From positions 1 through 52,701 of the forward strand of contig CANMJR010000020.1 in assembly GCA_947498025.1 (NCBI GenBank): a DNA stretch of 52,701 nt. The letters run 5' to 3'. This document shows, piece after piece, positions 7,358-48,687 of this stretch (position 1 is the first letter of the stretch; every line of letters starts with the position of its first letter). The position numbers and the translations under genes are program-made. The stretch comes from Helicobacteraceae bacterium (lineage in GTDB: Bacteria; Campylobacterota; Campylobacteria; Campylobacterales; Sulfurimonadaceae). The notes under the pieces were generated by a model. That model ran no database searches. It was given only the letters and a program-made list of their open reading frames with translations, and was not told the DNA's origin.

Positions 7358-7410
7358 CAACTTGACCTTACGTACTTTAGTAAAAAAGAGCGTAAATACC
7401 CTGTAACTCT

Positions 7411-7492
7411 CGAAAAACTTGTTTTTCGTAGCTTTAGGGGGTTGTAGGGACAATCTGTCCCTGCCACTAAAACGGACGAGTTCGTTTTAGTG
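7411..7492 (+). repeat. Three-hairpin intergenic repeat, copy A
   Basis: This copy lies between nadE and the aminotransferase gene. Hairpin 1 is CGAAAAAC/GTTTTTCG (7411-7428). It is followed by the core TAGCTTTAGGGGGTTG. Hairpin 2 is AGGGACA/TGTCCCT (7446-7462). Hairpin 3 is CACTAAAACG/CGTTTTAGTG (7465-7474 with 7483-7492). Copy B at 48591 is nearly identical; copy C at 22206 (opposite strand) keeps the core and the architecture with different stem sequences. Confidence 0.85.
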
Positions 7493-7524
7493 CGTAACAT
7501 CAAATAAAAATTAAGGGCAAAAAG

Positions 7525-22190: not shown

Positions 22191-22205
22191 CTATTTGATG
22201 TTATT

Positions 22206-22325
22206 CACTCAAATGAGCAAAACAAGAGAATCGCTCGCAAAGCGATGTTTCTTTAGAAAGCCCATTTGAGTGGCAAGGACAAAATTGTCCTTTGCAATCC
22301 CCTAAAGCTACCAGCTAAACGCTGG
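22206..22325 (-). repeat. Three-hairpin intergenic repeat, copy C (divergent)
   Basis: Read on the minus strand, it has the same order of parts as copies A and B. Hairpin 1 is CCAGC/GCTGG (22311-22325), followed by the core TAGCTTTAGGGGATTG. Hairpin 2 is built on GGACAA/TTGTCC (22275-22293). Hairpin 3 is CACTCAAATG/CATTTGAGTG (22206-22215 with 22263-22272), with a longer loop of 47 bases. Stem sequences differ from A and B but pairing is kept. It lies between convergent OsmC and HIT genes. Confidence 0.75.
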
Positions 22326-22350
22326 AGATTTATAAGGTTTTTGCACGTAT

Positions 22351-48536: not shown

Positions 48537-48550
48537 CAACTAATCTCAGC

Positions 48551-48571
48551 CACTTTTGTAAAAAAAAAGTG
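48551..48571 (+). terminator. Weak hairpin after htpG
   Basis: CACTTTT (48551-48557) pairs with AAAAGTG (48565-48571) around an A-rich loop, 15 bases after the htpG stop. It is AT-rich, and on the minus strand it is preceded by a T-run, so it may end transcripts from both sides. Confidence 0.35.
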
Positions 48572-48590
48572 TTTAAAGCCTTCCGAATCT

Positions 48591-48673
48591 CGAAAAGCAA
48601 AGTTTTTCGTAGCTTTAGGGGGTTGTAGGGACAATTTGTCCCTGCCACTAAAACGGACGCGTTCGTTTTAGTG
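48591..48673 (+). repeat. Three-hairpin intergenic repeat, copy B
   Basis: This copy nearly repeats copy A at 7411. Hairpin 1 is CGAAAA/TTTTCG (48591-48609), then the same core TAGCTTTAGGGGGTTG. Hairpin 2 is AGGGACA/TGTCCCT with loop ATT instead of ATC. Hairpin 3 is CACTAAAACG/CGTTTTAGTG (48646-48655 with 48664-48673). The loop of hairpin 1 has an insertion relative to A, while the stems are retained. It lies between htpG and the small membrane protein gene. Confidence 0.85.
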
Positions 48674-48687
48674 TGTAATATTGGATA

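Follow-up and report, generated by a model that had tools for sequence, protein, structure and literature searches.

A Family of MITEs with a Conserved Folded Interior in Campylobacterota, Probably Moved by an ISAba11-group Transposase

Results

Three Hairpin Repeats between Genes

The window, i.e. the whole stretch of 52,701 nucleotides that was analyzed (contig CANMJR010000020.1 of assembly GCA_947498025.1), contains three copies of a hairpin repeat, each located next to genes. Copy A follows nadE, the NAD synthase gene, copy B is situated between two convergent genes, and copy C has the Hsp90 gene (htpG) and a short opposing ORF as its neighbors. The features are listed below.

7362..7503, plus strand: copy A, complete element (142 bp); nadE lies on one side (stop 7357), a DegT-family aminotransferase gene on the other (start 7525)
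7362..7375, plus strand: left terminal inverted repeat of copy A, TTGACCTTACGTAC (consensus CTGACCTTACGCAC)
7411..7428, plus strand: hairpin 1 of copy A, CGAAAAAC..GTTTTTCG (sequence, folding)
7429..7440, plus strand: core of copy A, TAGCTTTAGGGG (exact match)
7444..7464, plus strand: hairpin 2 of copy A, GTAGGGACA..TGTCCCTGC (sequence, folding)
7465..7492, plus strand: hairpin 3 of copy A, CACTAAAACG..CGTTTTAGTG (sequence, folding)
7490..7503, plus strand: right terminal inverted repeat of copy A, GTGCGTAACATCAA (consensus GTGCGTAACATCAG)
22193..22331, minus strand: copy B, between convergent OsmC and HIT genes; hairpin 1 stem different, left end decayed
48540..48684, plus strand: copy C, after htpG (stop 48536); limits set by eye, model match 48585-48686

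The first-pass annotation had placed three-hairpin repeats at 7411, 22206, and 48591. All three are present there, each with the exact core TAGCTTTAGGGG (7429-7440 and 48610-48621 on the plus strand, 22299-22310 on the minus strand); that the 22206 copy lies on the minus strand had gone unstated. The part described was real, but the whole element is longer and includes terminal repeats and a fourth, upstream hairpin. The copies had been sorted into 7411 plus 22206 against 48591, which was wrong: the 7411 copy resembles that at 48591, and the odd one is at 22206. Complete replacement of stem sequence with preserved pairing had been claimed for hairpins 1 and 3. This holds for hairpin 1, the arms of which are CGAAAAAC/GTTTTTCG as opposed to CCAGC/GCTGG in the 22206 copy, but not for hairpin 3, where only 2 of the 10 outer pairs differ. 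The 22206 copy also harbors an additional hairpin, nested within the hairpin 3 loop.

Compared with dinucleotide shuffles, the three copies yielded folding z values of -4.95, -5.27, and -5.36, and none of 200 shuffles was as good. In the window alone, six core matches with up to two mismatches stood against 3.45 expected, which is not beyond chance. The left terminal repeat of copy C has decayed to CTAATCTCAGCCAC. A clear target duplication was not found for any of the three window copies (copy A matches at 2 of 7 positions; the left ends of copies B and C are decayed).

Distribution of the Family

The source genome (2.93 Mb, 102 contigs) contains the core, at one mismatch or fewer, 114 times as compared with three times for the reversed pattern. 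A covariance model was built on 25 copies and gave 125 matches in this genome, or 118 after removal of seven shadows on the opposite strand; these 118 are a minimum, since scoring was limited to 150 candidates. The core is carried by 112 of the 118, and the copy number was thus put at 112-118, again as a lower bound. The covariance-model search over related genomes, which the first-pass annotation had proposed as a check, brought up many further copies. The family is mobile and mostly intergenic. Matches were obtained in 42 of the 99 genomes searched (the source genome included) and in 6 of 30 genera. Four genomes belonging to other families of the order gave 70, 45, 133, and 53 matches, 133 being the maximum.

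The 24-base core occurs in at least 100 stretches of GTDB contigs, and among the core matches listed all 80 titles were from Campylobacterota (Sulfurimonas, Sulfuricurvum, Sulfurovum, Sulfurospirillum, and unplaced MAGs). No viral contig contained the core, and a single plasmid, NC_014754 of Sulfuricurvum kujiense, gave a match (81% across 66% of the query). A role as phage or plasmid cargo was rejected on these grounds. Neither the window nor six loci of relatives gave an Rfam match at gathering score, only sub-threshold ones, and a known RNA family was likewise rejected.

Anatomy of the Element

The element of ~142 bp begins with CTGACCTTACGCAC as its left repeat. This repeat and its inverse form a hairpin, after which come a linker, hairpin 1, GTAGCTTTAGGGGGTTG, hairpins 2 and 3, and finally the right terminal repeat GTGCGTAACATCAG. 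As expected of a MITE, both ends carry terminal inverted repeats (CTGAYSTTACGCAC), here of 14 bp. The element also has no coding capacity and no gene inside, falls within 70-300 bp, is multi-copy, and lies next to genes; a crude rule flagged 5 of 117 copies in the source genome as falling within an ORF of 100 or more codons. Among the 118 copies, the left repeat was recognized in 44 and the right one in 91 at up to three mismatches, and both were present in 35. Measured from TGA to TCA, 22 of these 35 two-ended copies are 140-142 bp long, two are 143 and 145 bp, and one is 148 bp; nine carry inserts and reach 183-199 bp, and the end pair of C19_49647 (248 bp) looks spurious. The element of genome G086 is ~115 bp long and has nearly perfect ends.

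Hairpin 1 exists in several unrelated versions and hairpin 2 in two inverted forms, GGGACATAAGCAGC and GCTGCTTTTGTCCC. Some copies have extra hairpins nested within hairpins 1 and 3. The possibility that the nested hairpin is a free unit was discarded: 31 of 33 matches to the hairpin 1 version (one mismatch or fewer) fall, by eye, in copies of the element, and the nested hairpin is therefore a module of it. A different nested hairpin (TTCTGTGCTTTTATATGGCACAGAA or similar) was seen in hairpin 3 at G000:C16_21121, C9_16238, and C1_40364. At L043 (G000:C10:63559), the left arm of hairpin 3 is extended and mirrors the right terminal repeat, giving a long palindrome as template switching would.

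Target Duplications, Empty Sites, and Insertion Sites

As expected of a MITE, the element has target duplications; they lie directly outside CTGA..TCAG and measure 7 bp, sometimes 8 bp. For 34 copies of the source genome, flank identity was 0.507 in a single register, whereas shuffled pairs gave 0.367 and none of 2000 shuffles was as high. Nine of the 34 matched at six or more of 7 positions and a further three at seven or more of 8 (8-bp duplications), and 22 had no clear duplication. The signal was also seen in other genomes, where 58 elements, a number that includes overlapping loci and was not de-duplicated, gave a flank identity of 0.677 versus 0.459 for shuffled pairs (0 of 2000); 27 matched at six or more of 7 positions, 15 of them perfectly.

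An empty site was found for an element of genome G040 that is flanked by TTAATCA and TTAGTCA. The source genome has a single TTAGTCA and no element at this place, and the two sequences align without gaps at 94.4% identity over 301 bp. Copy A is absent from the orthologous junction in a Sulfuricurvum MAG, which is a weaker case (74% over 152 bp, nine gaps). Another Campylobacterales MAG (L315) probably has an element at the copy A junction too, since it gives the same flank match as copy A. Further flank-joined candidates for empty sites (L267 and L414 versus L137; L328 versus L243) were too weak or partial and were set aside.

A crude ORF rule assigned both neighbors for 106 of 117 copies in the source genome: 36 lie between convergent, 58 between tandem, and 12 between divergent genes. 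Of 104 typed rows, 71 have the downstream gene directed towards the element, and in 58 of these 71 its stop codon is located between -20 and +10 of the end of the element. The element prefers AT-rich sites at the 3' ends of genes.

Candidate Transposases

In all likelihood, the three copies are MITEs, i.e. non-autonomous DNA transposons, of one family that has a conserved folded interior and is moved by an ISAba11-group DDE transposase. Mobilization would occur in trans; NCBIfam assigns this transposase group to the IS701 family. The ISAba11 group is the well supported candidate because insertion sequences of that group share both the ends and the duplication lengths of the MITE. In G135, a genome of the same genus, two contigs end inside one repeat that begins exactly with CTGACCTTACGCAC and encodes, running outwards, the C terminus of a transposase, the stop codon of which lies within the terminal repeat. 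The peptide is 64% identical over 39 amino acids to transposases of Moraxella osloensis plasmids and resembles the "group ISAba11" transposase of a Cyanobacterium plasmid; the repeat is known from 94 and 126 bp only. The contig ends in question (G135:C16 and C49; L433 and L434) appear as ends of a multi-copy ISAba11-like element that has the exact terminal repeat of the MITE.

The insertion sequence on the Cyanobacterium plasmid ("group ISAba11", L438) is 1108 bp long. Its left end, CTGATGTTACGCAC, agrees with the right repeat of the MITE at 14 of 14 positions, as does the G135 repeat with the MITE end, and its right end, TTGCGTAACATCAG, agrees at 13 of 14; the flanks match at 5 of 7 positions. 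Two Moraxella insertion sequences of 1138 bp have the ends CTGAAGTTACGCA, with 12 of 13 positions identical to CTGATGTTACGCA, and both are bordered by perfect duplications, TTACTAA (7 bp, L439) and TTAAATAA (8 bp, L440). Duplications of 7 and 8 bp are thus common to these insertion sequences and to the MITE (7 bp, sometimes 8 bp). Both ISAba11-type proteins scored above the cut-off of 250 bits with NCBIfam IS701_2 (353.5 and 343.8 bits) and carry the full Y..R...E......K motif. The family name IS701 may not fit this group because Table 1 of PMC2266710, the part of that source drawn on here, gives duplications of 4 bp for IS701 as compared with 7-8 bp here.

Intact insertion sequences of the ISAba11 group came from other phyla only, and none was seen whole in Campylobacterota. 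No whole insertion sequence with MITE ends was detected in the source genome (at one mismatch or fewer) or in G086. In 100 genomes of the genus, with ends 0.7-3 kb apart, the matches listed held none except G134:C228, which on reading turned out to be two MITEs and was rejected. Pfam DDE_Tnp_1 is another model that matches this transposase; across the 99 genomes, its presence was not associated with that of the MITE (odds ratio 0.89, p = 0.84).

Two other movers were weighed. It is improbable that the same MITE is moved by IS4-family elements of the ISPepr1 type (1486-1501 bp, with a transposase of 454 amino acids), although such elements are common in relatives, with 52 of 398 genomes from the order carrying them, and their transposase reaches 268.5 bits against a cut-off of 250 with NCBIfam IS4_4. 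Their ends, CTCAACTTTCGCAC, agree with the left and right MITE repeats at 11 and 10 of 14 positions, respectively, and the variant CTGAGCTTTCGCAC of G162 at 12 of 14. Among 17 distinct loci that reach the N terminus, the left end was exactly CTCAACTTTCGCAC in 11, differed by a single mismatch in one, was CTGAGCTTTCGCAC in G162, and was not found in four. Eight IS4 copies had both flanks readable; by eye, three show perfect 7-bp repeats and one a repeat at 6 of 7 positions. For ISPepr1, Table 1 of PMC2266710, the portion consulted, gives 7-8-bp repeats and the ends YT-AA-YTT---A. However, it is the ISAba11-group insertion sequences and not the IS4 elements that match the MITE ends exactly, and of 13 genomes in the 99-genome set that have an IS4 element or remnant, five contain the MITE and eight do not. 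The ISPepr1-type elements had been the favored mover and were demoted after the G135 repeat was found.

The first-pass annotation had considered a REP-like element with an unknown transposase and had proposed a search for a Y1/REP-associated transposase in the same genomes. That a Y1 (RAYT) transposase moves the element as a REP is very improbable. The search did bring up Y1 transposases in 43 of the 99 genomes, with 10 hits in the source genome, and their presence goes together with that of the MITE (odds ratio 3.8, p = 0.002; for genomes with at least 10 MITE matches, odds ratio 6.8, p = 0.003). GTAG is found after hairpin 1 and before hairpin 2, and a fragment of the element lies 20 bp after a Y1 gene of 470 codons. 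The elements, however, do not flank the Y1 genes: among 41 Y1 loci, there was one copy, in two overlapping loci. Moreover, G021, G024, G035, and G046 have 22, 7, 23, and 10 MITE matches, respectively, and no Y1 hit. Y1 transposases are not known to make terminal inverted repeats or target duplications. The terminal inverted repeats and the duplications of 7-8 bp therefore identify a MITE rather than a Y1-moved REP, and the empty site also speaks against Y1.

Some Y1 proteins are long and have extra C-terminal parts, as at G000:C22:2047-2790 (247 amino acids), C22:7579-8991 (470 amino acids), and C47:1967-2806 (279 amino acids). Open frames of 462-483 amino acids recur in relatives.

Conservation of Structure

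The interior of the element (hairpin 1, GTAGCTTTAGGGGGTTG, hairpin 2, and hairpin 3) is a folded module kept by compensatory change. The conservation of structure across copies that the first-pass annotation had seen in three sequences was confirmed on 55 model-aligned ones: 97.9% of cells were paired, and covariation was 0.465 as compared with 0.162 when shuffled and at most 0.114 when slid. Changes on both sides occurred at 21 of 33 pairs. This alignment was fitted to the model, leans towards the structure, and consists of related copies; pair counts were taken from it because a MAFFT alignment misregistered hairpins 1 and 3 and contained one row (L196) with the wrong stretch of sequence. 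One of the four helices, that between the core and GGGTT, showed no change on both sides and is unsupported.

Wobble pairs were used to address the strand. Among 95 distinct hairpin 3 arm pairs from other genomes, 52 G-U stood against 14 A-C, a count that is inflated by related sequences and for which the register was chosen by Watson-Crick pairs only; the model-fitted alignment gave 45 G-U versus 9 A-C. In the source genome, the difference was not significant (12 to 9 when counted at variable pairs, and 11 to 7). Two wobble pairs, G.T close to the hairpin 3 loop and T.G within hairpin 2, are conserved between families, occurring in 36 and 37 of the 55 sequences, respectively, and were not seen as A-C there. 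The excess of G-U over A-C in the other genomes points to folding of one strand and favors the plus strand, be it as RNA or as single-stranded DNA. A strand preference derived from folding energy was rejected: the difference between strands was no more than that of shuffles (p = 0.15) and is explained by composition. In 66 copies of the source genome, identity to the consensus is 89% in the right part and 65% in the left 45 nucleotides, where the null is 49%; the two parts are little correlated. This contrast of left decay and right conservation is only a hint of constraint because the copies were found through their right part.

Discussion

Less certainly, what is kept in this MITE would be the fold of one strand, most simply that of transcripts running through the element. 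A folded transcript would shield or process mRNA ends, as is thought for folded MITEs elsewhere. It is conceivable, but we regard it as rather doubtful, that the transposon carries a functional structured RNA, the interior of which is selected across several families of Campylobacterota for the fold of one strand, with the 24-nucleotide core nearly fixed, stems swapped, and hairpins nested. The role of such a putative RNA would lie in the transcript of the host or in control of the element's own transposition.

A reading in which the covariation is a by-product of repair of DNA palindromes, by template switching between the arms, and not of selection for the fold, is possible as well, although we would not expect it to be correct. 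In the source genome, most changes in hairpin 3 affect both members of a pair together, double changes being common and intermediates rare (one such pair is T-A in 60 copies, C-G in 17, A-T in one, and another combination in three), and the two inverted forms of hairpin 2 are of the kind that this process would leave. On the other hand, the G.T pair of hairpin 3 and the T.G pair of hairpin 2 persist across families instead of being repaired, and G-U exceeds A-C in the other genomes. It is unlikely that the copies are small structured RNAs or cis-acting RNA elements for which function rather than transposition explains the spread, the terminal repeats being secondary. In other families of the order, the body is kept where the terminal repeats are weak; the stems covary; the G-U excess would fit an RNA; and by eye many copies are located just before an AGGA that resembles a ribosome-binding site. 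Against this, the copies occur in all contexts of neighboring genes, whether convergent, tandem, or divergent, orthologous sites are empty, and Rfam offers no match at gathering score.

Taken as a MITE with a folded interior, the element is closest in kind to the modular BOX elements of Streptococcus pneumoniae. According to the portion of PMC3049150 available, these are also modular structured MITEs that have many copies and optional internal hairpin modules, and mobilization in trans by an insertion sequence with similar ends has been proposed for them. Unlike BOX elements as described in that portion, and compared by description rather than by sequence, the family presented here has its optional hairpins inside the loops of hairpins 1 and 3, clear duplications of 7-8 bp, and hosts among the Campylobacterota. 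Insertion sequences of the ISAba11 group/IS701 family (L437-L440) have the ends CTGAWGTTACGCA and duplications of 7 and 8 bp beside TTA..TAA; they are the likely source of the transposase because ends and duplications are alike. They differ in that they are 1.1 kb long and carry a gene, whereas the MITE has 142 bp and an unrelated folded interior. The ISPepr1 subgroup of IS4 shares duplications of 7-8 bp, a preference for AT-rich sites, and 5'-CT ends, but the ends of the MITE agree with 6 of the 8 conserved end positions (Table 1 of PMC2266710, the section used).

As far as the excerpt of PMC3733652 goes, ERIC, NEMIS/Correia, RUP, and bcr1 MITEs are likewise short folded non-coding repeats that lie beside genes and are mobilized in trans; they differ in sequence and host and are set apart here by description only. 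The same excerpt describes GTAG-tagged REPs and their RAYTs, which resemble the present family as multi-copy extragenic palindromes with GTAG near a hairpin and a preference for the 3' ends of genes. REPs are, however, palindromes of 20-40 bp, in contrast to an element of ~142 bp with terminal repeats and duplications. GTAG/CGTC repeats in Sulfurovum are reported there too, a REP count for Sulfurimonas gotlandica is listed in the accessible part of PMC12306157, and a MITE of Moraxellaceae, MITEAba12, is listed under PMC6382973. In the literature searched, no description was found of MITEs of this kind in Sulfurimonas, Sulfurovum, or other Campylobacterota. The family is a further structured MITE that is unusual in its breadth and stem turnover.

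In some genomes of Sulfurimonas and its relatives, this one small family accounts for at least 100 mostly intergenic hairpins, and it will confuse searches for RNA motifs in them. It probably also breaks short-read assemblies, to judge from elements near contig ends in G086. Its stem-swapped variants form a natural series that could show whether the fold of a MITE is selected as RNA or as DNA.

Several related repeats were encountered. A second MITE body of ~250-266 bp has an unrelated hairpin interior between the same CTGACCTTACGCAC ends; it was found in G086 (L217, L218, L219, L220:682-945, and L221), G001 (L418), G007 (L419), and G054 (L420), with perfect 7-bp duplications in L418 and L420. 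In G097, a larger GC-rich repeat (CCCC(A/T)TGCGGGGCAGACGCTC...) adjoins elements on one or both sides (L158, L193, L197, and L205). Very short palindromes with little beyond the two terminal repeats, as if they were internally deleted elements, were observed at L055:552-599 (G000:C8), L222 and L236 (G086), L421 (G121), and L435 and L436 (G026).
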